Shown here: one piece after another, positions 7,678-48,868 of the stretch
Numbering within the stretch: the first letter of the stretch is position 1
Layout: the number at the start of each line of letters is the position of its first letter
Assembly (NCBI RefSeq): GCF_014637725.1
Contig: NZ_BMFC01000003.1
Coordinates: 1-64,000 of the forward strand
Direction: 5' to 3'
Source of the DNA: Marivita lacus
Lineage (GTDB): Bacteria > Pseudomonadota > Alphaproteobacteria > Rhodobacterales > Rhodobacteraceae
DNA: 64,000 nt
The notes under the pieces: generated by a model
The model's database searches: none
Seen by the model: the letters and a program-made list of their open reading frames with translations, nothing else
Told to the model about the DNA's origin: nothing
Made by a program: the position numbers and the translations under genes

Positions 7678-7683
7678 TGCAGA

Positions 7684-14817: not shown

Positions 14818-14826
14818 GCGCCGCCG

Positions 14827-17916: not shown

Positions 17917-17928
17917 GTTATTCGGTTC

Positions 17929-32329: not shown

Positions 32330-32339
32330 GTCTGCTCCT

Positions 32340-33764
32340 TTACCAGCTTGCCGAGATGTATTGCGTTTCCATGAATTCGAGCATGCCTTCATGCCCGCCT
32401 TCGCGGCCCAGCCCGGATTGCTTGGTGCCGCCAAAGGGCGCTGCCGGGTCGCTGACCAGACCCCGGTTCAGTCCAACCATGCCGTAATCCAGCCGTTCGC
32501 AGACCTGCAACGCGCGTTTGAAATCGCCGGAAAATACATAGGCGACAAGCCCGTATTCGGTGTTGTTCGCGCGATGGATGACCTCTTCCTGATCGCGGAA
32601 GGTCTGGATCGCGGCAACGGGTCCAAATATCTCGTCCTGCACGCAATCGGCATCCTCGGACACGTTCGACAGCACCGTCGGCGGATAGTAGAACCCCTTG
32701 CCCTCGGGCACGGTGCCGCCGCATTCGATCCTGGCACCCTTGGCCACCGCATCGGCGACGAACGCCGCCACCTTGTCGCGCGTGTCTGCATTGACCAGCG
32801 GGCCGACATCGACGGACGGGTCGGAGCCATCGCCGACCTTGAGCGCCGACATGCGCTCCGTCAGGCGTCTGGTGAACGCCTCTGCGATATTTTCATGCAC
32901 GTATATGCGGTTTGCCGCCGTGCAGGCCTCGCCCAGATTGCGCATCTTGGCCAGCATGGTGCCTTCGATGGCGGTGTCCATGTCGGCGTCTTCGAGCACC
33001 ACCACGGGCGCGTTGCCGCCCAGCTCCATCGCGGGCTTCAGAACCTGATCGGCAGCGGACTTCAACAGCTTGCGACCCACACCTGTGGACCCGGTGAAAC
33101 TGACCACGCGCACGCGCGGATCGTGCAGCATGTGATCCACCAGCGCGCCGGTCTTGCGCGAGGGCAGCACGTTGACGAGGCCCGGCGGAACGCCTGCCTC
33201 TTCCAGAAGCGGCATCAGCGCCAGCATGGTCAGCGGCGTTTCGGACGCGGGTTTGATGATGACGGCGCAGCCTGCGGCGAGCGCGGGCGCGATCTTGCGG
33301 GTGCCCATTGCAGCGGGGTAGTTCCAGGGCGTGATCAGCACCGCAAGTCCCGCCGGTTTGTGCTGTACGAGGATACGCGCGCCCGAGGCCGGGGCATGGG
33401 TGATCATCCCGTCCGCGCGCACGGCCTCTTCGGCGAACCAGCGGAAGAACTCGGCGGCATAGGTGGCCTCGCCCTTGGCATCCGTCCCCGCCTTGCCGTT
33501 CTCCAGCGTGATGAGATGGGCAAAATGATCCAGCCGCGCGGTCATCAATTCCCATGCGCGGCGCAGCACTTCAGACCTTTGACGTGGCGTGCGCGCCGCC
33601 CAGTCGGCCATCGCCTTTTCGGCCGCGTCCAGAGCCCTGTCGGCGTCCGCGATGTCAGCGGAGGCGACCGAGGCGATCACCTCTTCAGTGGCGGGGTTGA
33701 TGACGTCGAAACGCTCGGCGGTCTTGTGCCACGCGCCGTCGATATAAAGATCGGTATAGTCCAT
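32340..33764 (-). CDS. NAD(P)-dependent aldehyde dehydrogenase (succinate-semialdehyde type)
   Basis: A 474-residue aldehyde dehydrogenase. It has the cofactor block ITPWNYPAAMGTRKIAPAL near residue 145, FTGSTGVGRKLL near 225, the glutamate in MELGGNAPVV near 250 and the catalytic cysteine in NLGEACTAANRIYV near 284. The nearest familiar group is GabD (succinate-semialdehyde dehydrogenase), but small aldehydes in general are possible. It lies between the two E2 genes with gaps of 10 and 17 bp, so it is part of the dehydrogenase-complex operon and may oxidise the aldehyde that an acetoin-type complex releases. Confidence 0.9.
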   Translation of the reverse strand: MDYTDLYIDGAWHKTAERFDVINPATEEVIASVASADIADADRALDAAEKAMADWAARTPRQRSEVLRRAWELMTARLDHFAHLITLENGKAGTDAKGEATYAAEFFRWFAEEAVRADGMITHAPASGARILVQHKPAGLAVLITPWNYPAAMGTRKIAPALAAGCAVIIKPASETPLTMLALMPLLEEAGVPPGLVNVLPSRKTGALVDHMLHDPRVRVVSFTGSTGVGRKLLKSAADQVLKPAMELGGNAPVVVLEDADMDTAIEGTMLAKMRNLGEACTAANRIYVHENIAEAFTRRLTERMSALKVGDGSDPSVDVGPLVNADTRDKVAAFVADAVAKGARIECGGTVPEGKGFYYPPTVLSNVSEDADCVQDEIFGPVAAIQTFRDQEEVIHRANNTEYGLVAYVFSGDFKRALQVCERLDYGMVGLNRGLVSDPAAPFGGTKQSGLGREGGHEGMLEFMETQYISASW

Positions 33765-33781
33765 GTCGGTCCCCCGGAAGG

Positions 33782-35077
33782 TCAGAGCAGGTGGCGGAGC
33801 GGTTGCTCCACCCGGCCTGCGAAATCGGTCAGAAGCTGGATTGCGGCTTGCGCGTCCAACTGGTCAGCGGCGCAATCAAGCGTGATCCGCAGACCCTTGC
33901 GCCGCAGTGTGATCGTGAGAACCGGCACGGTGTCCGCGCCCATATCGGCGCTGCGGATCGTCGTGCCGCGAAGATCGCGCAAGATCAGGTCGGGTGCCGC
34001 GTCGGTTTTCGTGACGCCCGAAAGCGTGCGGCTGTCGGGCATGGCGTAGGTCTGCGAGGTGCCGAAACGATCGACAGCAATGTTGGCGGCGTTGGGCAGG
34101 GACGCACCGGCAAGAGCTGCAAGGATCGCGTCCGGATCGGTAAGGCCGTGGGTTTCCCCGGCCCATGTGGCGAAAGCGGGAAGGGCATCGCCTGTAACCT
34201 TGGCCACAAGGTGATGCATGGCGGCGGCGGCAGCAGCTGTCGGTTGAGCCGATTTCCGAGGTAGCGCCTTGAGCACGTCGAGATCGCGGACATGGAAGGG
34301 TTGCGGATGCCCGGCCTCGACCAGCAGGGACAGGTCCAGCCCCTGTTCCAGCGCGAGCCTGCGCAGCTTGGGCGAGGCAAGGATACGGCCATGCGTCGGT
34401 TGAGGCGTGGGTGTTGCAGGGGCAGGCCGCTCCTTGGCCCTTTCGGGCTTCGTCGCTTCGGCAACGGCGGGCGTTTCGTGGTCAGACGGCGGCGGGGACT
34501 TGGCGCTGCGCGCTAGCGGTGCATCCGGTTTCTCGGCACTGATGATCGCGACCGCTTGCCCCACGGGAACATTCTCTCCGGCCTCGGCCAGAGTGGCGGC
34601 AAGATAGCCGTCAGTTCCCGCCTCGACTTCCATCGTGCTCTTGTCGGTCTCCACTTCGAAGAGCACATCGTCGGCCTTGACCGCATCGCCGGGAGATTTC
34701 TGCCAGCTGACCAAAAGGCCACTGTCCTGCGCCATGCCCAGTTGCGGCATGGTCACAGACTTACCTTCGGGCAGTGCGTTGGATGTCTCGACCGGCACGG
34801 CGGTGGCGGGTGCCTCGGGCGCGGGGCCTTCGTCATCGGCACTGTCCGAAATGCGCGCGATTACAGCTCCGACTTTGACGTCTTCACCCTCGGCCGCCGA
34901 CACGCCGGTCAGAAAGCCGCTGGCCTGCGCCTCGACCTCCATCGTGGCCTTGTCGGTTTCCACCTCGAACAGGGCGTCACCCTTGGTCACCGGATCGCCG
35001 GGGGCCTTGAGCCATGACACGATCTTGCCCGCATCCTGCGCCATGCCCAGTTGAGGCATTGTCACATCATGCCGCAT
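33782..35077 (-). CDS. Di-lipoyl E2 protein with degenerate catalytic domain
   Basis: A 431-residue E2-like protein. Two lipoyl domains lie at about 4-77 and 107-178, with lipoylation sites Lys43 and Lys146, each in VETDK-[AS]-TMEVE. A peripheral-subunit-binding domain follows at about 228-262 (ILASPKLRRLALEQGLDL). The C-terminal 170 residues align with the E2 acyltransferase fold, but where the active E2 has YDHRVINGADAARF this one has LDCAADQLDAQAAIQ, so the catalytic histidine is gone. It probably serves as swinging-arm carrier for the catalytic E2 at 31448-32329. It overlaps E1-beta by 11 bp. Confidence 0.85.
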   Translation of the reverse strand: MRHDVTMPQLGMAQDAGKIVSWLKAPGDPVTKGDALFEVETDKATMEVEAQASGFLTGVSAAEGEDVKVGAVIARISDSADDEGPAPEAPATAVPVETSNALPEGKSVTMPQLGMAQDSGLLVSWQKSPGDAVKADDVLFEVETDKSTMEVEAGTDGYLAATLAEAGENVPVGQAVAIISAEKPDAPLARSAKSPPPSDHETPAVAEATKPERAKERPAPATPTPQPTHGRILASPKLRRLALEQGLDLSLLVEAGHPQPFHVRDLDVLKALPRKSAQPTAAAAAAMHHLVAKVTGDALPAFATWAGETHGLTDPDAILAALAGASLPNAANIAVDRFGTSQTYAMPDSRTLSGVTKTDAAPDLILRDLRGTTIRSADMGADTVPVLTITLRRKGLRITLDCAADQLDAQAAIQLLTDFAGRVEQPLRHLL

Positions 35078-36062
35078 GAATCATCTCCCCGGAGCAGAGC
35101 TTGCACGCCATCTCGATCACGCGGTCGGGTGTCGGGACGGTGATGTCTTCCAGCGCCGGGCTGAAGGGGATCGGCACGTCCATCGCGCCCATGCGCACCA
35201 CGGGTGTGTCGAGGTGGTAGAACGCCTTTTCGTTCAGGCGCGACGCGATTTCCGACGTGATGCCATAGCTTTGGTGGCCTTCGTCGATCACGATGGCGCG
35301 GCTGGTTTTCTTGACGCTTTGGATCAGGGTCGCCTCGTCCAGCGGAACGATGGTGCGCGGGTCGATCACCTCGGCCTCGATTCCTTCTTTCGACAGGATC
35401 GCGGCGGCCTTCTCGGCCACCTGCACCATCGAGGACGTGGCGATCAGGGTGATATCGCTGCCTTCGCGCTTGATATGCGCCTCGCCGAAGGGGATCAGGT
35501 ATTCCTCCTCCGGAACCGGGGCCTTGTCCTGGTACATCAGCTTGTCTTCGAAGATCACAACCGGGTTGTTGTCGCGGATCGCGGTCTTCATCAGGCCCTT
35601 TGCCTCGTAGGCTGAAGACGGCATCGCCACCTTGAGCCCCGGAATATGCGCCACCAGCGCCTGCAGGGATTGCGAGTGCTGCGCGGCCGAGCGACGGGTC
35701 GCGCCCATGTTGGTGCGCAGGACCAGCGGCACGTTCAGCTTGCCGCCCGACATGTAGTGGATCTTGGCCGCCTGGTTGCAGAGCTGGTCCATGATCAGGA
35801 AGATGAAATCGCCGAACATCAAGTCGACGATGGGGCGCGCGCCGGTCATGGCGGCACCAACTGCGATGCCCATAAAGCCGGGTTCGGCGATGGGCGTGTC
35901 GATGACACGCTCGGTGCCGAATTCCTCGACCAGACCGGACAGCACCTTGAACGGCGTTCCGGCCTCGGCCACATCTTCGCCCAGCAGGAACACTGTGGGA
36001 TCGCGGCGCATTTCCTCGGCGATGGCCTCGTTCACGGCCTGGGACAGGGTGATCTCTCTCAT
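35067..36062 (-). CDS. 2-Oxoacid/acetoin dehydrogenase E1, beta subunit
   Basis: The 331-residue beta subunit of a thiamine-diphosphate E1. It has the opening REITLSQAVNEAIAEEM, GEDVAEAGTPFKVLSGL near residue 28, the glutamate block DTPIAEPGFMGIAVGAAM near 60 that activates ThDP, and VPLVLRTNMGATRR. It pairs with E1-alpha encoded 12 bp upstream. Sequence alone does not separate pyruvate, branched-chain or acetoin dehydrogenase; the aldehyde dehydrogenase in the operon favours an acetoin-like cleavage reaction. Confidence 0.9.
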   Translation of the reverse strand: MREITLSQAVNEAIAEEMRRDPTVFLLGEDVAEAGTPFKVLSGLVEEFGTERVIDTPIAEPGFMGIAVGAAMTGARPIVDLMFGDFIFLIMDQLCNQAAKIHYMSGGKLNVPLVLRTNMGATRRSAAQHSQSLQALVAHIPGLKVAMPSSAYEAKGLMKTAIRDNNPVVIFEDKLMYQDKAPVPEEEYLIPFGEAHIKREGSDITLIATSSMVQVAEKAAAILSKEGIEAEVIDPRTIVPLDEATLIQSVKKTSRAIVIDEGHQSYGITSEIASRLNEKAFYHLDTPVVRMGAMDVPIPFSPALEDITVPTPDRVIEMACKLCSGEMIHAA

Positions 36063-36074
36063 GTCGGTCTCTCC

Positions 36075-37052
36075 TCAGTCCGCGTAGACATGCATGTCCA
36101 CTTCGGACACATCGGGGTATTTGGCCGCCTCGGCATAGGCGACGGCCTCGGAGGCATCCTTTTCGATCTCGGCATTCATCGCCTCGATCTCGTCTTCGGT
36201 CGCGATGCCTTCACTCACAAGGTAGCCGCGGAAGCGGATGATCGGATCGCGGTTTTCCTTCCAGTCCTTCTCTTCGTCCTTGGAGCGGTAATATTCGCGG
36301 TTGATGTCGCCCACGTGGTGACCGTGGTAGCGGTAGGTCTCCAGTTCGATGAAGAACGGGCCTTCACCCTTCCGGCAGCGCGCGACCAGCTTTTGCGTCA
36401 ATTCGTTGACTGCCAGCACATCCTGACCATCGACCTTGAACGCCTCGATCCCGAAGGCCTCGGCGCGCGCGGTGATGGAGCCGGCGGCGATCTCCTCGGT
36501 CTTGGTGTATTCGGAATAGCCGTTGTTTTCGCAGGCATAGATGACCGGCAGGTTCCACAGCGCCGCCATGTTCATGACCTCGTAAAGCAGCCCCTGCGCG
36601 GTCGCGCCGTCGCCGAAGAAACAGACGGTCACGTCGTCCTGACCCAGGAGCTTGGCGCGCAGCGCCGATCCGGTGGCGATGCCCATTGAGCCGCCGACGA
36701 TGGCGTTGGCGCCAAGGTTGCCGTGGCTCTGGTCGGCGATGTGCATCGACCCACCCTTGCCGCGGCAATAGCCTTCTTCCTTGCCCAGCAGTTCGCAGAA
36801 CATTTCCTTGAAATTCGCGCCCTTGGCGACGCAGTGCCCGTGGCCCCGGTGGGTCGAGGTGATGCGGTCGTCGTCGGTCAGTGCCTCGCAGATGCCCACG
36901 GCCACGGCCTCTTCGCCGGAATACATATGCGTGAGGCCCGGCATCTTGGCCGAGAGGTACAGCTGGTTGGCGGTGTCCTCGAAGGTGCGGATGCGCATCA
37001 TCTGGCGATACATGCGCAGATAGTCTTCGGTGTTTGTCTTGGTCTTGGCCAT
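36075..37052 (-). CDS. 2-Oxoacid/acetoin dehydrogenase E1, alpha subunit
   Basis: The 325-residue alpha subunit of the same E1. The ThDP-magnesium motif starts at CFFGDGATAQG near residue 145 and ends at CENNGYSEY about 28 residues later, the usual GDG-N26-NN form. RGHGHCVAKGANFKEM and GKGGSMHIADQ are typical E1-alpha blocks. GGGAGGG precedes the ATG at 37052. A terminator lies between this gene and the M24 gene upstream, so E1-alpha is probably the first gene of its own transcription unit E1a-E1b-lipoyl E2-ALDH-E2. No E3 gene is present; the housekeeping lipoamide dehydrogenase presumably serves. Confidence 0.9.
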   Translation of the reverse strand: MAKTKTNTEDYLRMYRQMMRIRTFEDTANQLYLSAKMPGLTHMYSGEEAVAVGICEALTDDDRITSTHRGHGHCVAKGANFKEMFCELLGKEEGYCRGKGGSMHIADQSHGNLGANAIVGGSMGIATGSALRAKLLGQDDVTVCFFGDGATAQGLLYEVMNMAALWNLPVIYACENNGYSEYTKTEEIAAGSITARAEAFGIEAFKVDGQDVLAVNELTQKLVARCRKGEGPFFIELETYRYHGHHVGDINREYYRSKDEEKDWKENRDPIIRFRGYLVSEGIATEDEIEAMNAEIEKDASEAVAYAEAAKYPDVSEVDMHVYAD

Positions 37053-38520: not shown

Positions 38521-39330
38521 CTACTGGATGCACCAGCCGCCATCGATGTGGATCATCTGGCCGGTCATGTAATCGCTGTCGTCGCTGACAAGGAACGAAG
38601 CGGTGCCGACGATATCCTTGGGATAGGACACGCGCTTGATCTGCAGAGCGTCGCGGACGATGTCCTCGTAGGCTTGGCCCTCGCGATCCTTGAAGCCGAT
38701 ATCCACGAGGTCCTTGTCGAGCTGTTCCCAGAGCGGTGTCACCACCACGCCCGGCGCATAGCCGTTGACGGTGATGTTGTGCTCGGCAAGGCCAATTGCG
38801 CCGCAATGGGTCAGCGCCAGGCAGCCGTATTTCGAGGTGCAGTAGACCGTCACATCGACCAGCGGCTTGCGCGACGCGATGGAGCCCACGTTGATCAGCT
38901 TGTAGGGGTGATCTTCCATCGGGCCCTGGGCGATCATCTGGCGGGCGGTTTCCTGCATGCCCAGCCACATCGCCTTGGTGTTGACGTTCATGATCATGTC
39001 CCAGTTGTCTTCGTCGATATCCATGAAGAACCGGGGCTTGTTCAGGCCCGCATTGAACAGACCCACATTGATCGACCCGAACGCCTCGACCGTGGCGGCG
39101 ACGGCGGCGGCGTTGTCTTCGCGCTTGGTCACGTCCATTCTGACGGCGATGGCCTTGCCGTTGCCGGCCGCGTTGATCTGGTCAGCGACAGCCTTGGCTT
39201 CGCCTTCATCCAGATCCCCGATACAGACATTGGCCCCTTGTGCGGCGAAGGATTCGGCATTGGCAGCACCCATGCCACGGGCAGCGCCTGTGATCAGGAT
39301 GTTCTTACCTTTGAGGCGATTGGGGTCCAT
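38521..39330 (-). CDS. SDR dehydrogenase (polyol/sugar type) of the regulator operon
   Basis: A 269-residue classical short-chain dehydrogenase. It has TGAARGMGAANAESFA near residue 14, NAGLNKPRFF near 93, the serine in NVGSIASRKP and the catalytic Tyr in YCTSKYGCLALT. The C-terminal APGVVVTPLWEQLDKD is close to the paralogue at 42417-43214 and to sorbitol/mannitol dehydrogenases. It follows the fusion regulator by 10 bp and starts after GGAGGAAACC. I infer NAD-dependent oxidation of an alcohol group of the substrate imported by the ABC system at 41377-46732. Confidence 0.88.
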   Translation of the reverse strand: MDPNRLKGKNILITGAARGMGAANAESFAAQGANVCIGDLDEGEAKAVADQINAAGNGKAIAVRMDVTKREDNAAAVAATVEAFGSINVGLFNAGLNKPRFFMDIDEDNWDMIMNVNTKAMWLGMQETARQMIAQGPMEDHPYKLINVGSIASRKPLVDVTVYCTSKYGCLALTHCGAIGLAEHNITVNGYAPGVVVTPLWEQLDKDLVDIGFKDREGQAYEDIVRDALQIKRVSYPKDIVGTASFLVSDDSDYMTGQMIHIDGGWCIQ

Positions 39331-39340
39331 GGTTTCCTCC

Positions 39341-41167
39341 CTAAGTGACCTGTTGTCTCATGATGTCTTCGGCACCCGCCTGAGCCCGGTCGAGCGCCTC
39401 GCGCGGGGAGACGATCCCGCGCAGCATGTCGTGAAGTTCGTGGCCGCAGATACGGATGATGTCCGAGATCTCGGGGATCGGCGGGCGCGGCCAGAATTGC
39501 AGCTCGTCGCGCCAGGACATCTGGTCGACCAGCTCAAAAATCGGCGACAGACGCCGCACTTCGGGGTCTGCCCCGACCGAATAGCGCGGCGCGGTGCGGC
39601 TGCCGCTTTGGGCGTACAGCTTTTGCGCCCCGGGCGATGTGAAGGCGACAAGCGCTTCGATCGTGTCGTCGATCCGGTCTTCGGCCAGATTCGACGGGAT
39701 ACAGAACACGTAGCCCCCCACCGGCGCGATGGGTGCACCTTCCGGACCGTGCGGATGCGGCAGGTAGCCGGTGTTGCTATGCGCGGCACAGCTGTCATCG
39801 AGTTCGAAATACGGGGCGAGCAGAGTGTAGCCATAGGCCATCGCCACCTTGCCCGACGCATAGGGCCGGACCCGTTCGTACCACGACATCGACAGGATAT
39901 CGGGCGGCGAAAACGCCAGCAGTTGCATCAGGTAATCGGCGGCATCCATCGCCCGGTCGGTGTTGAGCATGGGGTGAAACGTACGGTGGCCCAAGTGGTC
40001 GGCGTCATAGCCGCCCGCGATTTCCGGCAGGTCGATGATCGGCTGACCGAACGCGGCGCAGGTCATCATGAACGTATGCCCCAGTGCCGTGCCCCGTGCC
40101 GCGTTCCATGCCACGCCGTAGCGCCCGTGCCGGGGATCGTGGAAATGCCGCGCGGCGTCGATCACGGCGTCGGTTGTGACCGGTGGCTCCAGCCCTTCGG
40201 AGGCGAACCAGTCCTTGCGGTAGAACATCAGTTCCGGCGTGGTCTGGCTGGGAACGCCATACGGGCAGCCATCCCAATGCGCCGCACGCCAGCCTGCGGT
40301 GTGGAAATCAGCCGGATCGAGCCGCGACACATCCATCACCTCGGTCAGCGGGCGAATCACGCCCTTCTTCACGAATTCCCCCAGCCACGGCAGGTCGATC
40401 GCGATCAGGTCATAGCGGCTCTTGCTGCGTTCGCTGTTGCGCAGCGCCTCTTCGCGCAGGCGGTCGATGGAAAACGCGCGCTGGTGGATGTCGGTGCCGA
40501 CAAGCTGTTCGAATTGCCGCTTGAGGTTCTCCATCACCATGAAGGTTGGATCGCCATGTACCAGGATACGCAATCCGCCCGGCAGCTTGAGCGGTTGGGG
40601 CAGGACGACGGGCGGCACAATCGTGGCGCGGGTGGCCTGATAGGAGCCGCCGTAATAGTAGTTCTCGCCCGCGTCGGTTTCCGGGGACCCGCCGAATGAC
40701 AGCCGTGCCATGCGGTCGATGCGGTCGGCCAATTGGCTGAACTGTTCCAGCAAGGCCGCGCTGGGGTGCAGCGAAAAGCTCTTGCCGCTCTTGGTGCGGG
40801 GGCGCTGTTCCAACAGACCCGACTCCTTGAGCTCGCCCAGCTTGCGCGTGGCGGTGGCATAGGGCACCCCGGCAGCGGCCACGATGGAGGAGGGCGATAC
40901 AAGACGCCCTTCGGAATGGCTTTGCAGCACGTGCAGGATCATGTTCAGATGCGGGTTGGGCGTATTCGGCTCGATGGAGGTGTCCAGTTCGACCGTCAGC
41001 GACTTCAGGAACGTGACCACCCGCTCCCATTCCGGACCCGTCACCGCGACATGCGGCACGGTCGGCCGCTGAACGGATCGCTGTCCAAATTGGATATCTG
41101 ATGAGGGGTTTGCGTTCATGGTCTCGGTTTCAGGTCTCGCGGACGGTGTTTTGCGTGAGTCGGGCAT
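39341..41167 (-). CDS. Fusion regulator: winged HTH joined to an extracellular-solute-binding-protein fold
   Basis: A 608-residue protein with no signal peptide or membrane segment. Residues about 70-140 form a MarR/IclR-like winged helix (LVSPSSIVAAAGVPYATATRK then KLGELKESGLLEQ, quoted in part). From about 195 to 590 it matches family 1 solute-binding proteins (MalE-like): ILVHGDPTFMVMENLKRQFE, YDLIAIDLPWLGEFVKKGVI, ELMFYRKDWFASEGLEPP, and FCIPSNLAEDRIDDTIEALV in part. So a periplasmic-type sugar sensor has become the cytoplasmic ligand domain of a repressor or activator. It is divergent from the ABC importer and leads the SDR-M24 operon. The ATG at 41167 has GGGGAAG upstream; Met17 at 41119 is an alternative without one. 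Confidence 0.85.
   Translation of the reverse strand: MPDSRKTPSARPETETMNANPSSDIQFGQRSVQRPTVPHVAVTGPEWERVVTFLKSLTVELDTSIEPNTPNPHLNMILHVLQSHSEGRLVSPSSIVAAAGVPYATATRKLGELKESGLLEQRPRTKSGKSFSLHPSAALLEQFSQLADRIDRMARLSFGGSPETDAGENYYYGGSYQATRATIVPPVVLPQPLKLPGGLRILVHGDPTFMVMENLKRQFEQLVGTDIHQRAFSIDRLREEALRNSERSKSRYDLIAIDLPWLGEFVKKGVIRPLTEVMDVSRLDPADFHTAGWRAAHWDGCPYGVPSQTTPELMFYRKDWFASEGLEPPVTTDAVIDAARHFHDPRHGRYGVAWNAARGTALGHTFMMTCAAFGQPIIDLPEIAGGYDADHLGHRTFHPMLNTDRAMDAADYLMQLLAFSPPDILSMSWYERVRPYASGKVAMAYGYTLLAPYFELDDSCAAHSNTGYLPHPHGPEGAPIAPVGGYVFCIPSNLAEDRIDDTIEALVAFTSPGAQKLYAQSGSRTAPRYSVGADPEVRRLSPIFELVDQMSWRDELQFWPRPPIPEISDIIRICGHELHDMLRGIVSPREALDRAQAGAEDIMRQQVT
41083..41095. promoter_or_regulatory. 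Candidate operator copy 1, GTCCAAATTGGAT
   Basis: Arms TCCA and TGGA around three bases, inside the first codons of the fusion regulator gene. It matches copies 2 and 3 in the divergent gap at 11 or more of 13 positions. A site here could block transcription of the regulator itself. Confidence 0.5.
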
Positions 41168-41220
41168 CGTGCTTCCCCATGAAAATGTTCAAACTGACGG
41201 TTTCTGGATATCGAGTATAA

Positions 41221-41233
41221 GTCCAAAATGGAC
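41221..41233. promoter_or_regulatory. Candidate operator copy 2, GTCCAAAATGGAC
   Basis: A 13-bp palindrome with perfect 5-bp arms GTCCA/TGGAC and spacer AAA, in the 209-bp divergent gap. Its centre is exactly 21 bp from that of copy 3, so two dimers would bind on the same face of the helix. Confidence 0.65.
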
Positions 41234-41241
41234 GAAAAAAT

Positions 41242-41254
41242 ATCCAAAGTGGAT
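41242..41254. promoter_or_regulatory. Candidate operator copy 3, ATCCAAAGTGGAT
   Basis: A 13-bp palindrome with perfect 5-bp arms ATCCA/TGGAT and spacer AAG, 123 bp before the binding-protein start. With copy 2 it forms a tandem site between the two diverging operons, the expected target of the fusion regulator. Confidence 0.65.
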
Positions 41255-41376
41255 AAAACAGCGCGTTTGTCGGAGGGGGAAATATCGCTGGATAGGGTCA
41301 GGTTGCTTCGGGTCAGAGCCCGGCTGGGAGGACAGCGGCAATCGTGAGAACAACACCCCTAGGGAGGAAGATGAAC

Positions 41377-42336
41377 ATGAAGATGACATTCACCGCCGCA
41401 CTGGTTGCTTCGACAGCCATGACCGGTGCCGCGATGGCCGGATCGCACAGCGAAACGATGACCATCGGGATCACGCAGAACAATGTGGGCGTCGACAGCT
41501 ATCAGACGACCTACGAAAAGGCGTTTATCGAGGCCGCCGAGGCCAATGACATGGTCGAAGCCGTGGTGCTGGATGCGGGCGGCGATGTGGCGCGTCAGAT
41601 CGCGCAAATGGAAGACCTGATCCAGCAGGAGGTCGATGCCATCATCATCTGGCCGACCAATGGCGAAGCGGTGATCCCGGCAGTGCGCAAGGCGCACAGT
41701 GCAGGTATCTCGGTCATCGTGACCAATTCCAACATCGCCGAGCAGGGCTTTGATTTCGTGGCAAGCTTCTCTGGCCCCGACAACATCACCCAAGGCTCGC
41801 GCTCGGCCGAGATCATGTGTGACAAGTTCAAGGACATGGGCATCGCGGACGAAGCCCGCGTCGTGCAGATTTCCGGCCAGCCCGGCTACACCACCGCCAT
41901 CGAACGGGCCAAGGGTTTTGAGGACCGTCTGCCCGAGGTTTGCCCGAACGTGACGCTGGTCGAAACGCAACCCGGCGACTGGAACCGCGAAAAGTCACAG
42001 CAGGTGATGGAAGCGTTCCTGGTCAAGTATGACGACATCGACGGTGTCTATGCCGGGGATGACAACATGGGCGTCGGCGCCCTCAACGCGGCCAAGGCAG
42101 CCGGGCGCGAAGGCATCATCTTTGTTGGCGCGACCAATTTTTCGGTCGGTTACGATGCAATGGCGGATGGCGACTATTGGGGCTCGATCTACCAGTCTCC
42201 GGTGGATGACGCCGAAGCGGCGTTGAAGACCGCGATCGACGTGCTGAACGGTGAGGACGTGCCGTTCCTCAACTATTTCGACACGCCCAAGATCACCCAG
42301 GACAACATGGACGAGTTCACCAAACCCGTCTTCTGA
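41377..42336 (+). CDS. Sugar ABC transporter substrate-binding protein (RbsB-like)
   Basis: A 319-residue periplasmic binding protein of the ribose/galactose family. The N-terminus MKMTFTAALVASTAMTGAAMAG is a signal peptide. Mature blocks include IGITQNNVGVDSYQTTYEKA, VDAIIIWPTNGEAVIPAV, ISGQPGYTTAIERAKGFED and VYAGDDNMGVGAL, which line the hinge and sugar pocket in this family. Three in-frame ATGs follow the GGGAGG at 41362-41367; I chose 41377 (9-base spacing). It is the first gene of the importer operon, so expression should respond to the operators just upstream. The ligand is not predictable. Confidence 0.9.
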   Translation: MKMTFTAALVASTAMTGAAMAGSHSETMTIGITQNNVGVDSYQTTYEKAFIEAAEANDMVEAVVLDAGGDVARQIAQMEDLIQQEVDAIIIWPTNGEAVIPAVRKAHSAGISVIVTNSNIAEQGFDFVASFSGPDNITQGSRSAEIMCDKFKDMGIADEARVVQISGQPGYTTAIERAKGFEDRLPEVCPNVTLVETQPGDWNREKSQQVMEAFLVKYDDIDGVYAGDDNMGVGALNAAKAAGREGIIFVGATNFSVGYDAMADGDYWGSIYQSPVDDAEAALKTAIDVLNGEDVPFLNYFDTPKITQDNMDEFTKPVF

Positions 42337-42416
42337 TCTCCTCCCCGGACGCGCGGGGTGGCTTCGGCTGCCTCGCGTGTTTGGCTTCTTTTCAAGGTAA
42401 AATATGGGTGAGCGGG

Positions 42417-43214
42417 ATGGCAGGAGTCTCGGGACGGTCATGCATCGTGACCGGTGCGGCGCAAGGTATTGGCCGCGCAATAGGTGAGGCGCTTTTGGCC
42501 GAGGGCGCGAATGTCTGCTTTGCGGACATCAATGCGGCCAAGGTGGCTGAAGTCGCCGACGCGAACGCGGACCGCGCAGGAGAGGCCGGGTGCAAGGTCA
42601 CCCATGCGTCTGTGGATGTGACGGACCGTGCGCAGGTCAAGGCGATGATCGCGCATGCGGTCGACCGGTTCGGTCGGCTGGACGTCAAGTTCAACAATGC
42701 AGGCGTCAACAAGCCGATGAATTTCCTCGACGTGACCGAGGAAAACTGGAACTTCATCATGGGCATCAATGGTCTGGGCTGCATGATCGGCATGCAGGAA
42801 GCAGCTCGCCAGATGATTTCCCAAGGCGGCGGCGGCAAGATCATCAACACCGCGAGCATCGCCAGCAGGCAGGGGTTCGACAACGTCGCCCCCTACTGCG
42901 CGAGCAAATGGGCCGTGGTGTCGCTGACGCAATCCGGCGCGCGCGATCTGGCAAAACATGATATAACGGTTACCGGGTTCGCCCCCGGTGTGGTGGCGAC
43001 CGAGATGTGGGAACAGGTTGATCAGGATCTGATGGCCATCGGGGCGGCAGAGCGTCCCGGTCAGGCGATGGAGGAGTTTTCGTCAGAGATCCTGCGCGGC
43101 CGGGTCGCCCGCCCCGAGGACATCACCGGGACGACAACGTTCCTGGCCTCCTCGGCCAGCGACTACATGACCGGACAGATCGTGATGATCGACGGCGGCA
43201 TGACTTTGGTGTGA
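42417..43214 (+). CDS. SDR dehydrogenase (polyol/sugar type) of the importer operon
   Basis: A 265-residue classical short-chain dehydrogenase and paralogue of the SDR at 38521-39330; both share NAG-x-NKP, the W-N-IM block and the APGVV-[AV]-T-x-[ML]-WEQ-[VL]-D-[QK]-D motif. The cofactor motif is TGAAQGIGRAIGEALL, with NTASIASRQGF and YCASKWAVVSLTQ as catalytic blocks. It sits between the binding protein and permease genes, so it is co-expressed with uptake. The start is uncertain: ATG 42417 gives the normal family length, while GTG 42408 has a slightly better-placed AAGG. Confidence 0.87.
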   Translation: MAGVSGRSCIVTGAAQGIGRAIGEALLAEGANVCFADINAAKVAEVADANADRAGEAGCKVTHASVDVTDRAQVKAMIAHAVDRFGRLDVKFNNAGVNKPMNFLDVTEENWNFIMGINGLGCMIGMQEAARQMISQGGGGKIINTASIASRQGFDNVAPYCASKWAVVSLTQSGARDLAKHDITVTGFAPGVVATEMWEQVDQDLMAIGAAERPGQAMEEFSSEILRGRVARPEDITGTTTFLASSASDYMTGQIVMIDGGMTLV

Positions 43215-43245: not shown

Positions 43246-44220
43246 ATGGCAGAATTGACGAAACGGGGCATCGGAGAAGTCCTCGCCAAGCAGGGCATCC
43301 TGATCGCCTTCGTGGTTTTCATGATCGTGTTTGCGCTGGCAAATCAACGCTTTATCGCAATCGACAATATCTCGGGCGTGATCCGGTCCTCGGCCATTCT
43401 GGGCGTGATGGCGCTGGGTGTCACCTTCGTGGTGATCGGCGGCAATCTTGACCTGTCCGTCGGGTCGATGATGTCCTTCTCGACCATCGTGGTGCTGGAC
43501 CTGCACGACAAGATCGGACCGACGCTGGCCATTCCGGCGATGTTCGGCCTGACGATGGCGCTGGGCGCGTTCATCGGGTTCCTGGTCGGCTATCTCAAGC
43601 TCAATTCCCTGATCGTCACCCTGGGCATGTTGTCGGCCATCCACGGGCTGACGCTGACATGGTCCGGGGGCCAGAACATGGACATCGCCGACAAGGCCGG
43701 AACGTGGTTCTCGGTCTTCGGGCAAGGCCGCGTGGCGGGTGTGCCGGTGCCGATCCTGATCTTTGCCGGGCTCGCCATCGTCCTCAGTCTTGTGTTGTCT
43801 AAGACGCCATTCGGCCGCAAGGTCTATGCCGTTGGCGGCAACGGCAAGGCGGCGACCTTTTCCGGCATCCCGCGTGCCCGCATCGTGTTCATGACCTATC
43901 TGATCTCGTCCTTCTGCGTCGCCTGTGCCGGGCTCTTGCAGGCCAGCCGCAGTCTGGGCAGCCAGAACACGGTCGGGCAGGGGATGGAGCTAGAGGTGCT
44001 GGCCGCTGTGATCCTTGGCGGCGCGTCGCTTTTGGGCGGCTCTGGCACCATCTTCAAGACCGTGATCGGCGTTCTGATCCTTGGCTTTATCCAGAATGGA
44101 CTTCTGCTTATGGGGCTCGCGTTCTACGTCCAGTACGTCGTCACCTGGCTGATCATCATCCTGGCTGTCTGGCTGGATATCGCGGCCAAACGGGGCCGGT
44201 TCTGGTCGCAGATTGCTTGA
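43246..44220 (+). CDS. Sugar ABC transporter permease 1 (RbsC-like)
   Basis: A 324-residue membrane protein of the ribose/xylose permease family with about eight to ten helices. Family blocks are LGVTFVVIGGNLDLSVGSMM near residue 63, NSLIVTLGMLSAIHGLTL near 117, and the cytoplasmic coupling region VGGNGKAATFSGIPRAR near 200, plus ILGGASLLGGSGT near 260. AGGGGGAGGG precedes the ATG. The second permease starts 11 bp after its stop, suggesting a heterodimeric channel. Confidence 0.92.
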   Translation: MAELTKRGIGEVLAKQGILIAFVVFMIVFALANQRFIAIDNISGVIRSSAILGVMALGVTFVVIGGNLDLSVGSMMSFSTIVVLDLHDKIGPTLAIPAMFGLTMALGAFIGFLVGYLKLNSLIVTLGMLSAIHGLTLTWSGGQNMDIADKAGTWFSVFGQGRVAGVPVPILIFAGLAIVLSLVLSKTPFGRKVYAVGGNGKAATFSGIPRARIVFMTYLISSFCVACAGLLQASRSLGSQNTVGQGMELEVLAAVILGGASLLGGSGTIFKTVIGVLILGFIQNGLLLMGLAFYVQYVVTWLIIILAVWLDIAAKRGRFWSQIA

Positions 44221-44231
44221 GGAGCAGAGTG

Positions 44232-45224
44232 ATGAGCAAGGAAACCCTTTTCAAGCAAGGCGCCATCTGGGCCTTCATCGTGGTCGAGTTGATCTTCTTC
44301 TCGGTTGCAGGCTCTTACCTGTCTGTCTCGGACAGCGCCTTCATGGATTTCGACAACATGCTGCTTTTGCTCAAGCAATCGGCCCCGATCGGGATCATCG
44401 CGCTGGGCATGACGATCATCATGATCAATGGAAATATCGACCTGTCGGTGGGGGCCACCTATGCGCTCGCGGCGATTGTGCTGCTGGACAGCATGACATG
44501 GCCCTTCATGCAGGCGATGGGCGATTGGGCGATCCCGCTGGCCTGGTTCTTTGCGCTGCTGACCGGAACCGTTCTGGGGGCGATCAATGGTCTGATCGTG
44601 TGGAAAACCGGCGTCGATGCGTTCATCGTCACGCTGGGGTCCATGCTCGGCTACCGGGGGCTGGTCTTCATGTATAATGGTGAACAACCCACCAGCCATC
44701 TGAACTGGACGCTGGTGGATTTCGCCGAGGCGCAGTTTCTGGGCCTTCACACCGCGACATGGTTCCTGCTGGTCGCTGCCCTCATCCTGTGGCTTGTGAT
44801 GACCAAGACCGTGCATGGCCGCAACGCCTATGCCATCGGCAACAACCGCGAGGCGGCAGTGAATGCCGGGATCCGCGTCGGACCGCATTTCCTGTGGAAC
44901 TTCATGCTGATCGGCTTTCTGGCGGCGCTGTCTGCGGTGGTGTTCTACTCGGAATCCGGGTCGGTCAATCCCAATGACGGGATGCTCTACGAACTCTGGG
45001 CGATCACGGCGGTGGTGCTGGGCGGAACCAAGCTGAGCGGTGGCTATGGCTCGATCATCTCGACCCTTGGCGGTGTCATCGCGATCCAGCTTCTGCGCAA
45101 GGGTCTGGGCCATATCGGCGCGGATACCGAAACGGTGAACCTCGTCATCGGCCTGATCCTGATCGCCGTCCTGTTTCTGGACCGGCAGCTGAACCGCACC
45201 GGCAAAGAGGAGTTGAAGATATGA
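44232..45224 (+). CDS. Sugar ABC transporter permease 2 (RbsC-like)
   Basis: A 330-residue paralogue of permease 1. It shows LGMTIIMINGNIDLSVGATY near residue 60, DAFIVTLGSMLGYRGLV near 130, AIGNNREAAVNAGIRV near 200 and LGGTKLSGGYGSI near 262. The ATG at 44232 has GAGGAGCA upstream; the frame could begin at a TTG at 44217 but this overlaps the preceding gene. Its stop overlaps the ATPase start by 4 bp (ATGA). Confidence 0.92.
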   Translation: MSKETLFKQGAIWAFIVVELIFFSVAGSYLSVSDSAFMDFDNMLLLLKQSAPIGIIALGMTIIMINGNIDLSVGATYALAAIVLLDSMTWPFMQAMGDWAIPLAWFFALLTGTVLGAINGLIVWKTGVDAFIVTLGSMLGYRGLVFMYNGEQPTSHLNWTLVDFAEAQFLGLHTATWFLLVAALILWLVMTKTVHGRNAYAIGNNREAAVNAGIRVGPHFLWNFMLIGFLAALSAVVFYSESGSVNPNDGMLYELWAITAVVLGGTKLSGGYGSIISTLGGVIAIQLLRKGLGHIGADTETVNLVIGLILIAVLFLDRQLNRTGKEELKI

Positions 45225-46732
45225 CCGATCACACCCCGGTTCTCCGGCTTGAGGACATCGTCAAGACATTCCCCGGTGTTCGCGCCCTTGACGGTGTGTC
45301 CTTCAACGTCCTGCCCGGTGAGGTGCACGCGCTGATGGGCGAAAACGGCGCGGGCAAGTCCACCCTGATGAAGGTGCTGGGCGGCATCCTGCAACCCAAC
45401 GAGGGCCGCATCTTCATCGAGGAAGAGCCGACCGTTATGACAACCCCAGTTCAGGCCAAGGCCAAGGGCGTGGTGTTCATTCACCAGGAACTCAGCCTTG
45501 CCGACGAGTTGACCGTGGCCGAGAATATCTTTCTGGGGGAACTGCCTCTGAAATCCTTTGGCCGGGTGGATTGGGGCACGCTCTATGATGACACGAATGC
45601 GATCCTGAAGCAGCTCAATGTCGGTTTCGATGCCAAGACGCGCGTCGGGGACCTGTCCATCGCCAACCAGCAGATGGTCGAGATTGCCCGCGCGCTGACC
45701 GTCGATCCCAAGGCGGTGATCTTTGATGAACCCACCGCCTCGCTGACCGATGCGGAAAAGGTCGTGCTGTTCGACGTGATCTCGGGTCTGCAATCCAAGG
45801 GCGTCGGGATCATCTATATCTCGCACCGGATGGAGGAGATCTTCAAGATCACCGACCGGATCAGCGTGTTGCGCGACGGCCAGTATCGCGGCACGCTCAA
45901 CACCCGCGAAACCAACGAGGAAGAGGTCACCCATCTGATGATCGGGCGAAAGCTCGATCTGTCGCGCAACGAAAGCCATCACGAATTGGGGGATGTGGCG
46001 CTCGAGGTGCGGGGGCTCAGCTGTGGCAAGCTTTTTCAGGATGTGAGCTTCAACGTTCGCAGGGGCGAGGTTCTCGGCTTTTACGGGCTGGTCGGTGCCG
46101 GGCGGACCGAGATCGCCGAAACCCTGTTCGGTCTGCGCGATCCGTCCGCAGGGCAGATCCTGCTGAACGGGCAGGAGGTCCGCATCAAGTCGCCCATTGA
46201 AGCGATCGGGCACGGCATCTCGCTGGTGCCCGAGGATCGCAAGGGGCAGGGGCTGGTGCTGGGCATGAACTGCCGGGACAACATGACCTTGCCGCAGGTG
46301 GATGACCTGACCGCCGGGCCGTTTGTGAGCGATGGTGCTGAAATCGCGATCTTCGACCAGTACCGCGACAAGCTGGATATTCGCACTCCGGGCTGGCGGC
46401 AGACCGTGGGCAACCTGTCAGGCGGCAACCAGCAGAAGATCGTCATCGGCAAATGGCTGTCGATGCGGCCCGAGGTGTTGATCGTTGACGAGCCGACACG
46501 CGGCATCGACGTGGGCTCGAAATCCGAGATCCACAACCTGATCCGCGATCTGGCGGCGCAAGGCTTCGCGGTGATCGTCATCAGTTCGGAGATGCCCGAA
46601 GTGCTGCACGTCTCCGACCGGATCGTGGCGATGTATTCGGGCCGGGTGATGCGCGAATTCACCTCGGACGAGGTGACCGAGGACAGTCTCATTCAGGCAA
46701 TTTCCGGCATCACCGGCGACAAGGTGGCCTGA
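45221..46732 (+). CDS. Sugar ABC transporter ATPase, two-domain (RbsA/MglA-like)
   Basis: A 503-residue protein with two tandem ATP-binding cassettes. The first has Walker A GENGAGKST, a signature-like LSIANQQMVEIARAL and Walker B VIFDEPTASL. The second has the degenerate GLVGAGRTEIAE in place of Walker A, signature LSGGNQQKIVIGKWL and Walker B LIVDEPTRGIDVG. This asymmetry is normal for the ribose-type importer class. It completes a full importer with one binding protein, two permeases and one ATPase. Confidence 0.94.
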   Translation: MTDHTPVLRLEDIVKTFPGVRALDGVSFNVLPGEVHALMGENGAGKSTLMKVLGGILQPNEGRIFIEEEPTVMTTPVQAKAKGVVFIHQELSLADELTVAENIFLGELPLKSFGRVDWGTLYDDTNAILKQLNVGFDAKTRVGDLSIANQQMVEIARALTVDPKAVIFDEPTASLTDAEKVVLFDVISGLQSKGVGIIYISHRMEEIFKITDRISVLRDGQYRGTLNTRETNEEEVTHLMIGRKLDLSRNESHHELGDVALEVRGLSCGKLFQDVSFNVRRGEVLGFYGLVGAGRTEIAETLFGLRDPSAGQILLNGQEVRIKSPIEAIGHGISLVPEDRKGQGLVLGMNCRDNMTLPQVDDLTAGPFVSDGAEIAIFDQYRDKLDIRTPGWRQTVGNLSGGNQQKIVIGKWLSMRPEVLIVDEPTRGIDVGSKSEIHNLIRDLAAQGFAVIVISSEMPEVLHVSDRIVAMYSGRVMREFTSDEVTEDSLIQAISGITGDKVA

Positions 46733-46733
46733 C

Positions 46734-47603
46734 ATGCGCGTGGGGTTCGCAGGGTTGGGCCGCATGGGTGCGCACATGGCCGCGAACCTCGTGGCGGCAG
46801 GGCATCAGGTGACGGTCTGGAACCGCTCTCCCGAGAAGGCACAGGCGCTGGCCGACCAGACCGGCTGCGCGGTGGCGGCGACCCCGGCGGACCTGACCTA
46901 CGCGTCCGAGGTTGTGGTGACCATGCTGGCTGATGATCCGTCCTCCGAGGCGGTGCATCTGGGACCGGATGGCTTGTTCAACGGACAGGGCGCGCGGGTC
47001 TTTGTCGAGATGGGCACGATGTCACCCGATCACATCCGCGTCCTGTCCGATGCAGCACCCGAGGGCTGCACCGTGATCGACGCGCCGGTGTCCGGGGCCA
47101 CGCAGGCGGCGGCGGATGCGCAATTGCTGGTCATGGCAGGCTGTTCGGAGGATGCGCTTGACCCGATACGCCCGGTGCTCGACGCACTGGGTCGCAAGAC
47201 GATCTGTCTGGGTCGCACAGGCGCAGGAGCGGTGATGAAGCTGGCGGTCAATTCGCTGATCCACGGGTTGAACCAGACGCTGGCTGAAGCCCTGACGCTG
47301 GGCGAGGCGGCCGGGATCGCGCCAGAGGCGGCGTTCGAGGTGATCGAGAACAGCGCGGCGGCAGCCCCCATGCTGAGCTACCGCAAGCCGCTCTATCTCG
47401 ACGAGGCCAGCCATGACGTGACCTTCACGGTGGCGCTCGCGCGCAAGGACATGGAGGTCACGGCAGCGCTCGCCGAAACGCTCGGCACGGCGATGCCGCA
47501 AGGCAAGGTGACTCTCGACACGCTGCGCCGCGCGGAACAGGCCGGGTTCGGCGCACGCGACATGGCGGCGATGGTCAATTTCATGCGAAAGGACAAGGAA
47601 TGA
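46734..47603 (+). CDS. NAD(P)-dependent beta-hydroxyacid dehydrogenase (3-hydroxyisobutyrate dehydrogenase-like)
   Basis: A 289-residue member of the beta-hydroxyacid dehydrogenase family. It has the Rossmann motif VGFAGLGRMGAHMAANLV at residues 2-19, the substrate block DAPVSGATQAAAD near 117, and the catalytic lysine in GAGAVMKLAVNSLIHGLNQ near 168 (this type uses MKLxxN). It follows the ATPase stop by 1 bp. Members oxidise 3-hydroxyisobutyrate, tartronate semialdehyde, or reduce glyoxylate; the real substrate here is probably a hydroxy acid or aldehyde made from the imported compound. Confidence 0.88.
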   Translation: MRVGFAGLGRMGAHMAANLVAAGHQVTVWNRSPEKAQALADQTGCAVAATPADLTYASEVVVTMLADDPSSEAVHLGPDGLFNGQGARVFVEMGTMSPDHIRVLSDAAPEGCTVIDAPVSGATQAAADAQLLVMAGCSEDALDPIRPVLDALGRKTICLGRTGAGAVMKLAVNSLIHGLNQTLAEALTLGEAAGIAPEAAFEVIENSAAAAPMLSYRKPLYLDEASHDVTFTVALARKDMEVTAALAETLGTAMPQGKVTLDTLRRAEQAGFGARDMAAMVNFMRKDKE

Positions 47604-48313
47604 AAGCGGCGCTTTTCGTCGGTGGCTGGGAAGGCCACACCCCGACCCATTTCGCGGACTGGTACACCGACCTGTTGCAGGCCAACGGGTTCAAGGTTGA
47701 TGTTTACGAAACGCTGGAACCGCTGGAACGCCCCGAGGATCTGGCCGACCTGGATTTGATCACGCCGATCTGGTCCTCGGCGCGGTCCGGCCATCAGGCG
47801 GAATTCGGCAACATGACCAAGCCGCAGGAAGACGGTTTGCTCAAGCTCATCGGCGATGGCTGCGGGCTGGCCGGGTGGCACGGGCACATGGGCGACGCGT
47901 TCCGCGACCGGCCCACCTATCATTTCCTGATCGGCGGGCAATTCGTGGCGCATCCGCCGGGGTGGCCGGACAACCTTCAGCCCAAGGAAGATTACATCGA
48001 CTATGACGTGACGATCTGCCAGCCGGATCATCCGCTTGTCAAAGGCATCCGCAGTTTCCGCATCCGCTCCGAGCAATATTACATGCTCACCGATCCGTCG
48101 AACAACGTATTGGCGACGACCACCTTTTCCGGCGACCATCTGTGGTGGATCGAAGGCACGGTGATCCCGGTCACATGGACCCGGCGCTGGGACAAGGGGA
48201 GGGTCTTCTATTGCTCGATCGGTCACGAGCTGGACGATCTGAAAGTGCCGCAAGTGACCGAAATGATCCGGCGCGGGGCCATCTGGGCGGCAGAGGGCAA
48301 GGCGGCAACCTGA
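47600..48313 (+). CDS. ThuA-domain protein
   Basis: A 237-residue ThuA-family protein with a class I glutamine-amidotransferase-like fold but no nucleophile triad that I can recognise. Blocks are ALFVGGWEGHTPTHFADWY at the start, GLAGWHGHMGDAFRDRPTY near residue 92 and TWTRRWDKGRVFYCSIGHE near 192. ThuA proteins accompany sugar oxidoreductases (ThuB) in trehalose and glucoside use through 3-keto sugars. Here it overlaps the dehydrogenase gene by 4 bp and ends the importer operon. A role on an oxidised sugar is inferred. Confidence 0.87.
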   Translation: MKAALFVGGWEGHTPTHFADWYTDLLQANGFKVDVYETLEPLERPEDLADLDLITPIWSSARSGHQAEFGNMTKPQEDGLLKLIGDGCGLAGWHGHMGDAFRDRPTYHFLIGGQFVAHPPGWPDNLQPKEDYIDYDVTICQPDHPLVKGIRSFRIRSEQYYMLTDPSNNVLATTTFSGDHLWWIEGTVIPVTWTRRWDKGRVFYCSIGHELDDLKVPQVTEMIRRGAIWAAEGKAAT

Positions 48314-48360: not shown

Positions 48361-48831
48361 TTACCAGGAATTGTAGCCCAGGTACTTGCCCGACATCTCG
48401 AGCTTGACGCGGTCGCCCTTTTCGTGCGGCACGCGGGTGAGTGTCATGTCAAAGTCGATGGCCGACATGATGCCGGTGCCGAACTTTTCCTCGATCAGCG
48501 CCTTGATGGTCGGCCCGTAGACGCCGACGATTTCATATAGGCGGTAGATGCAGGGGTCCGTGGGCACGGCCTGCGACCAGACCTTGGTGGGCGGCTCTTC
48601 CAGAACGCTGGCCGCTTCCTGCGGCAGGCCCATGACGGACACCAGCGCCTCGGCCTTGTCCTTGGGAAAGGCGTTCATGCCCATGCAGGCGGAATGGGTC
48701 CAGACCGGAGACATGTCGATCTTCTCGGCGATGCCCTCCCATGTCATGCCGGCCTGTTTCTTGGCGGACAGGATCATCATCGTCACGTCTTCCTTGGTCA
48801 TCATGACTGGCACCTCGTAATTGTCTTTCAT
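48361..48831 (-). CDS. cynS: Cyanase (cyanate hydratase)
   Basis: Cyanase converts cyanate and bicarbonate to ammonia and two CO2. The 156-residue protein has the catalytic triad of the family at Arg97, Glu100 and Ser123, in TDPCIYRLYEIVGVYG and GIMSAIDF, offset by one from the E. coli numbers (96, 99, 122). The N-terminal helical domain and C-terminal dimer domain have the usual lengths. I chose the ATG at 48831 because AAGGAGG precedes it. It is the last gene of the cyanate-type importer operon. The reaction consumes bicarbonate, which the DabAB system elsewhere in the window would make. Confidence 0.95.
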   Translation of the reverse strand: MKDNYEVPVMMTKEDVTMMILSAKKQAGMTWEGIAEKIDMSPVWTHSACMGMNAFPKDKAEALVSVMGLPQEAASVLEEPPTKVWSQAVPTDPCIYRLYEIVGVYGPTIKALIEEKFGTGIMSAIDFDMTLTRVPHEKGDRVKLEMSGKYLGYNSW

Positions 48832-48868
48832 TGGTTGTCCTCCTTGGTCGTATTGCAAAGTTTGAGTG

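Follow-up and report, generated by a model that had tools for sequence, protein, structure and literature searches.

Why does Marivita lacus encode a MalE-type solute-binding domain joined to a winged helix, in a gene that lies divergent from a sugar importer whose own binding protein belongs to another family? The gene was singled out in a reading of a 64,000-nucleotide stretch of the genome (the window), in which it was predicted to be a one-component regulator and probably the sugar sensor of the system. Here we follow the architecture of the protein, its gene neighbourhood, the operator-like sites around its start, the mechanism that these suggest, and the spread and origin of the fusion. 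Coordinates refer to the window unless they follow an L number, which denotes one of our comparison loci; G numbers denote genomes.

Architecture of the regulator

39341..41167, minus strand: regulator gene, 608 aa, open for 608 codons with no internal stop
40694..41035, minus strand: DNA coding for the MarR-like winged helix (residues 45-158), from models and Foldseek
39356..40573, minus strand: DNA coding for the MalE-type solute-binding domain (residues 199-604), from Pfam, phmmer, model and Foldseek

The protein comprises a winged helix (residues ~45-158), a flexible linker (~159-198) and a family-1 solute-binding fold (199-604). This architecture had been proposed from the sequence alone, with profile searches and structure prediction named as checks, and it is borne out by Pfam, an AlphaFold2 model and Foldseek. 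SBP_bac_1 (PF01547) matches residues 250-515 with an E-value of 1.5e-17 and 65 bits against a gathering cut-off of 26, SBP_bac_8 is matched as well (E 4e-14), and all 23 members of the alignment set built around the regulator match SBP_bac_1. The profile check succeeded for this domain but not for the helix-turn-helix: MarR_2 (19.7 bits, cut-off 27) and HTH_IclR (18.4 bits, cut-off 22) both align with residues 77-124 at scores below their gathering cut-offs, so that Pfam makes no helix-turn-helix call in the window protein. HTH_IclR does exceed its cut-off in the Paraburkholderia relative at L106 (31 bits against 22), and MarR_2 matches 8 of the 23 members at E 0.01. Down to E 0.1, Pfam finds no LacI HTH and no Peripla_BP_1/3/4 domain in the regulator, and neither the SgrR N-terminal domain nor SBP_bac_5.

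Among solved structures, 5iai is the closest in sequence; phmmer aligns it with residues 199-600 at E 3.2e-23. The AlphaFold2 model, computed from the 23-row alignment with a mean pLDDT of 80.6, has the binding-protein fold at residues 199-604, preceded by a low-confidence linker at 160-180, and a Foldseek search of the PDB with this domain again returns 5iai as best match (E 1.7e-27, TM 0.92 by target length), in agreement with the original prediction. The modelled winged helix consists of helices at residues 45-62, 72-86, 92-98 and 103-115, a two-stranded wing at 119-135 and a long helix at 137-158. Modelled alone it reaches a pLDDT of 89.5, and MarR-type structures make up most of the 50 Foldseek matches listed for it, the best at E 1.4e-4 with a TM of ~0.5.

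The original prediction of a missing signal peptide also held. The highest 15-residue mean hydropathy in the N-terminus is 1.27, with no hydrophobic stretch, against values of 1.41-2.67 ahead of the binding domain in 15 canonical relatives; by this hydropathy scan the regulator has neither the signal peptide nor the lipoprotein anchor of an extracellular importer binding protein. Two fusion rows, L112 (2.5) and L111 (1.5), exceed 1.41, in parts of stop-to-stop ORFs that lie upstream of the homologous region. Judged by sequence and model, the regulator would be of the cytosolic one-component type, with DNA-binding and sensor domains in one soluble protein.

Gene neighbourhood

41344..42336, plus strand: importer binding protein, RbsB-type (Peripla_BP_4), divergent from the regulator; likely true start ATG 41371 or 41377
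42381..43214, plus strand: short-chain dehydrogenase SDR2
43246..46732, plus strand: importer permeases (43246-44220 and 44217-45224) and double ATPase (45221-46732)
46734..48313, plus strand: 3-hydroxyisobutyrate-dehydrogenase-like gene and ThuA-domain gene
38521..39330, minus strand: short-chain dehydrogenase SDR1, 10 bases past the regulator stop codon
37143..38471, minus strand: M24-family protein
31448..37052, minus strand: five ORFs read, by gene order beside the annotated operon in L103, as 2-oxo-acid-dehydrogenase-like and aldehyde dehydrogenase genes

The regulator had been placed divergent from a complete sugar importer and at the head of an operon, and the annotated window agrees on both points. 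RbsB, two permeases of the BPD_transp_2 (Rbs) type in Pfam and a double ATPase lie on the plus strand, and the regulator is the first gene in a minus-strand row that continues with SDR1, the M24 protein and the five ORFs. We take these five to encode E1 alpha, E1 beta, a lipoyl protein, an aldehyde dehydrogenase and an E2 catalytic protein, a naming that leans on their order beside the annotated operon of L103 (Phaeobacter inhibens plasmid pP74_e). An ORF at 48361-48858 on the minus strand, adjoining the importer operon, is presumably cyanase-like.

This arrangement is widely conserved. In a scan of genome contigs, 80 of 163 loci were kept, all from other genome records and all encoding a relative of the regulator with the same divergent RbsACB-type importer; the first listed is Marivita cryptomonadis (86% identity), and by their names we take most of the 80 to be Rhodobacterales, with some Stappia and Martelella. 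Counting only loci whose contig leaves room, RbsB is divergent in 78/78 and is followed by RbsC1, RbsC2 and RbsA in 78/78, with SDR2 present in 68/78. Downstream of the regulator lie SDR1 (77/77), M24 (70/71), E1 alpha (64/70) and E1 beta (63/69). Upstream of the importer gene, at 41309-41322 on the plus strand, there is also a short GC-rich inverted repeat, CGGG...CCCG, which by eye seems to recur at about the same position in several relatives.

The surroundings of 14 further members (L097, L099, L103-L108, two in L128, L129 and L166-L168) were compared, the gene names for L097, L099, L128 and L129 being our reading of unannotated ORFs. In each of the 14, a gene for a sugar-type importer or for a dehydrogenase of the Gfo/Idh/MocA or a similar kind lies no more than a few genes away. 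Four members (L105, L107, L108, L167) have intradiol dioxygenase genes nearby, and two (L105, L107) maleylacetate reductase. More broadly, L105, L107, L108, L166, L167 and L168 adjoin genes for intradiol ring-cleavage dioxygenase, maleylacetate reductase or YciI-type proteins together with sugar-type dehydrogenases, neighbours that hint at a route from cyclitols to aromatic intermediates.

Two of these neighbourhoods are worth recording separately. In L128 (G581), with ORFs named by eye, paralogous fusions at 6949-8784 (plus) and 14659-16416 (minus) flank one RbsACB/GMC/Gfo-Idh cluster, and a third fusion regulator is encoded elsewhere in that genome. In L097, from a 1.4-Mb genome, an ORF at 16710-17999 appears by eye to be a close homologue of the window M24 protein, near a regulator of 31-33% identity; the pathway linkage may therefore predate what regulator similarity suggests.

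Predicted operators

41243..41253, minus strand: predicted operator O1, TCCACTTTGGA, conserved in relatives
41222..41232, minus strand: predicted operator O2, TCCATTTTGGA, 21 bp from O1
41188..41198, no strand assigned: weaker palindrome O3, TTCAAACTGAC as read on the plus strand, 34 bp from O2, in conserved alignment columns 56-67
41084..41094, minus strand: predicted operator O4, TCCAATTTGGA, lying in codons 25-28 of the regulator ORF, 138 bp from O2

Exact copies of the 11-mer TCCA-N-TTTGGA stand at 41243-41253, 41222-41232 and 41084-41094, and the 64 kb contain no other; with up to one mismatch there are 7 matches in the window, a count reached by 1 of 100 shuffles. Between regulator and importer, 72 of the 80 loci carry two TCCA-N3-TGGA palindromes whose starts are exactly 21 bp apart, with up to two mismatches allowed per palindrome. 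In 100 mononucleotide shuffles no spacing reached a count above 4, and 21 was not one of the five spacings seen most often in a control stretch of the regulator gene; the remaining 867,004 bases of the 80 loci hold 55 pairs by the same pattern, or 0.02 per control window. At no more than one mismatch in each palindrome the pair is still found in 48/80 loci. Of the eight loci without a pair at the threshold used, inspection by eye showed a 22-bp pair in L066 and 21-bp pairs with three mismatches in one half in L041 and L088, the rest being worse. Aligned on the pair, the 68 non-redundant of the 72 sequences give an extended consensus, TATCCA-N3-TGGATA, twice, followed after 34 bp by the weaker O3 palindrome. 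A search for plasmid DNA similar to the intergenic region returned no match.

In its own genome the double-site pattern with up to one mismatch is confined to the divergent promoter, and with up to three mismatches it has 22 matches on both strands, compared with 5 for a control pattern. A three-mismatch double operator at G000:C4:74943-74976 (L101) lies just upstream of a TRAP-type-like binding-protein ORF and may be due to chance. The location of the predicted operator between the two divergent operons supports a DNA-binding regulator of both, a role that we assign to the protein with high confidence.

The site O4 is of a different kind, since it lies within the sequence coding for the disordered N-terminal tail of the regulator. 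The pair is present in 73 sequences, those of the 72 loci and of the window. In 35 of them an O4-type site with up to one mismatch lies 135-139 bp beyond O2, a distance close to 13 helix turns, and in the other 38 such a site is missing from the interval of 130-145 bp; between 60 and 260 bp beyond O2, the remaining 16-bp bins contain 0-6 sites each. Pairwise identity is 64% in the 19 bp around O4, compared with 38% in the 60 bp on either side. At O4 the glycine is written as GGA in 40 of 53 rows picked up by a loose motif, whereas in the rest of the gene 261 of 3348 glycines use this otherwise avoided codon; Fisher's test gives p 1.9e-32, a value that is overstated because related rows were counted as independent. 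The loose motif also admits other glycines, which account for some of the 13 non-GGA rows and probably for three of the 40 GGA rows (L015, L056, L079). The local identity and the codon usage together imply that selection acts on the DNA, with the peptide at most a second target, making O4 a clean case of DNA-level selection acting on a disordered protein tail. Its fixed phase downstream of the regulator start suggests a repression loop.

Operator-like sites also accompany some of the more distant members. A 21-bp pair is present at the start of the fusion gene in G412, a genome outside the class of M. lacus. In G581 the minus-strand paralogue has an exact palindrome and the plus-strand paralogue two-mismatch copies, and in Skermanella (L108) exact palindromes occur at a spacing other than 21 bp. 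Two relatives of 31-33% identity, both of one genus, are preceded by TATTCA-N3-TGAATA (core TTCA-N3-TGAA). L099 and L106 have only two-mismatch sites near the gene start, and no convincing operator-like site was seen ahead of the gene in L104, L105 or L107.

Proposed mechanism and alternatives

Taken as a whole, these features make it probable that the protein is a cytosolic, autoregulating one-component regulator that acts as a ligand-relieved repressor. Its MarR-like winged helix would bind the TCCA-N3-TGGA palindromes, which are known to us as conserved sequence, and its solute-binding domain would sense a sugar or polyol brought in by the importer, or something made from it. In the absence of ligand, O1 and O2, which are two helical turns apart, would each carry a dimer, and further dimers would sit at O3 and, some 13 turns away inside the gene, at O4; jointly they would hold the divergent promoters down, probably by way of a DNA loop. 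Ligand binding would close the binding domain, change the dimer and release the promoters. Because the regulator gene heads the downstream operon, its product would control its own operon as well as the importer. The parts of this scheme carry different weight. From the fold and the neighbouring genes, the ligand is quite likely to be a sugar, polyol or cyclitol, or a derivative of one; repression is somewhat favoured over activation; and for DNA looping the chances seem to us even.

No sigma-70 consensus promoter was found at 41080-41400, so that the sign of regulation has to be read from operator placement alone. We favour a ligand-relieved repressor in view of O2, which closely precedes the regulator start, O3, which lies at it, and O4, which lies beyond it. 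The main rival is an SgrR-like activator with negative autoregulation, in which the ligand-bound protein on O1/O2 would recruit polymerase to the importer promoter while repressing its own. The narrow distance from the pair to the nominal RbsB start (quartiles 86 and 96 bp, range 71-131, n=71) would suit such an activator, as would the promoter itself, a lack of consensus -35 and -10 elements being common where promoters depend on activation. There are precedents in two reports: SgrR activates sgrS (PMC4021124) and represses itself, and deletion of a putative DsvR box abolished zapC promoter activity (PMC13060122). Against it stands O4, a fixed site inside the regulator ORF that fits looping repression better than activation, and we regard the activator as a serious but less probable reading.

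A second alternative concerns what the domain senses. The importer binding protein belongs to Peripla_BP_4 and the sensor to SBP_bac_1, so that the two recognise their ligands independently and what the regulator senses may differ from the molecule imported. It could instead read an intermediate of the pathway (keto sugar or sugar acid) that SDR1/SDR2 form, and the relatives are consistent with this in that they adjoin importers of differing kinds (RbsACB and MalEFGK types) yet repeatedly adjoin dehydrogenases. We hold this version to be possible, but less likely than not. That the domain has lost its ligand binding, and acts solely in dimerisation or in contacting another protein, is improbable, given the residues that are invariant or nearly so over 23 relatives down to 31% identity (for example D258, P260, W261, R317, D319, W559 and R561), which suggest a maintained pocket. 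Misassembly or chance fusion of two ORFs is ruled out for practical purposes by the 80 loci in other genome records that encode the fusion and by the 34 of 672 matching plasmid records, Paraburkholderia included, that align over at least 80% of the protein.

Relation to known systems

LacI-family proteins regulate sugar operons through a sensor related to periplasmic binding proteins, and use palindromic and auxiliary operators and looping; they combine the ribose-type fold with a LacI HTH. The regulator resembles them in its binding-protein-related sensor, its predicted palindromic and auxiliary operators and its putative loop, but neither a LacI nor a Peripla_BP model is among its Pfam matches. 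MarR proteins sense within a small winged-helix dimer. With these the regulator shares the winged-helix fold found by Foldseek and palindromic sites near a divergent promoter, whereas it adds a 400-residue sensor and scores below the MarR_2 cut-off. Its sensor agrees in fold and sequence with MalE-type binding proteins (5iai, 1eu8, 4qrz), from which the regulator differs in having no signal peptide, in its fusion to a DNA-binding domain and in its place beside Rbs-type permeases.

A further parallel is with SgrR and DsvR of the Gammaproteobacteria, which likewise join an N-terminal HTH to a C-terminal solute-binding fold and are tied to sugar metabolism; PMC13060122 describes DsvR as an SgrR homologue with an HTH and SBP_bac_5 by predicted structure, and SgrR as negatively autoregulated. 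Their binding domain is SBP_bac_5, however, whereas that of the regulator is SBP_bac_1, encoded divergently from an importer. A survey of solute-binding protein families notes, in its accessible part, that the Pfam models for these families also pick up the sensor domains found in kinases and transcriptional regulators, and that part names no SBP_bac_1 regulator of the HTH-fusion kind (PMC9602780). Among the titles and beginnings of abstracts listed by our full-text literature search, mostly of papers outside subscription, none concerned an HTH fused to SBP_bac_1. Within the literature searched, the regulator is of a known kind, and its sensor family, operator and in-gene site appear undescribed, so that within that scope the original prediction of a little-described protein stands.

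Distribution and naming

Is the fusion rare, as had also been claimed? The search for its phylogenetic spread shows that it recurs in family, class and phylum genomes and on plasmids, and that it is sparse outside its own family but not within it. In the family, 50 of 295 genomes (one per genus, counting that of M. lacus) match at E 1e-60, and some of these carry three copies; among the matches listed, one (G668) is a secreted protein, one (G781) lies at a contig end and three have an in-frame stop. In the class, 7 of 289 genomes match, one of them (G065) only through a binding protein with a hydrophobic N-terminus. Across the phylum the profile matches 16 of 398 genomes, 6 with the full fusion, G412 among them, and 10 with the binding domain only. 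The plasmid records that align over most of the protein extend down to 26% identity in Paraburkholderia. The fusion occurs in Alphaproteobacteria, in a Betaproteobacterium and in one genome from outside its own class, adjoining sugar or cyclitol genes.

These proteins would be hidden by their names. The 34 long plasmid matches are annotated as 'extracellular solute-binding protein' in 26 cases, as 'ABC-type sugar transport system, periplasmic component' in one and as hypothetical in one, and 6 have no annotation. A set of proteins now named as extracellular importer subunits would, on our reading, be regulators.

Origin of the fusion

In a tree of binding domains, 16 fusions fall on one side of a branch with support 100/100, and 12 canonical proteins on the other; this tree left out L008 and L009 (duplicates of L097 and L098) and L120, L003 and L004 (partial or weak). 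The secreted protein of G668 (L155 4743-6092) has 449 aa and a secretion-signal-like N-terminus and lies, by eye, beside two permease and two ATPase ORFs. It is 41% identical to the window sensor domain and 28-42% identical to the other fusions compared. When it is added, in a second tree of 20 fusions and 9 canonical proteins (seven earlier canonical rows kept, L155 and L165 added, L002, L118, L119, L121 and L124 left out), support falls to 70/65, and a single origin of the fusion in one lineage is therefore graded as likely only. Since the G668 protein branches at the base of the fusions, the sensor domain very probably descends from a MalE-type importer binding protein of its kind, and the G668 protein is a candidate for that ancestral protein. 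A return of the G668 protein to secretion is a possible alternative to a single fusion. Recent capture of the binding protein of a neighbouring importer was rejected: in L104 and L107, which have MalEFGK-type importers, the neighbour gives no match under E 0.27 to either fusion.

We lean towards the view that these proteins form an undescribed regulator family, present in at least two classes of Proteobacteria, which arose, probably once, when a secreted MalE-type protein shed its signal and acquired a MarR-like winged helix, and which has stayed hidden as 'extracellular solute-binding protein'. Its members would control sugar, polyol or cyclitol catabolism through TCCA-N3-TGGA operators, set in tandem 21 bp apart in the lineage of the window and often joined by a phase-locked operator in the sequence coding for their own disordered N-terminus. 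If this is true, a fold that does much of the work of sugar import, the MalE type, now serves in the cytosol as a switch for genes, as related folds do in LacI and in SgrR-type regulators. The predicted operator would make the regulon readable in genomes with close fusion relatives, and the family would offer ready-made sensors for sugars or cyclitols, with importer and enzymes adjoining.

Finally, the winged helix is not a domain unique to the fusions, as we had considered: its profile matches 22 of 289 class genomes and also proteins outside the fusions. The seven at E 4.4e-40 or better all belong to fusions, and the other 18 are weaker. By eye, three of the four weaker-match ORFs inspected (L136, L138 and L141) look like receiver-domain proteins with a related winged helix at the C-terminus.
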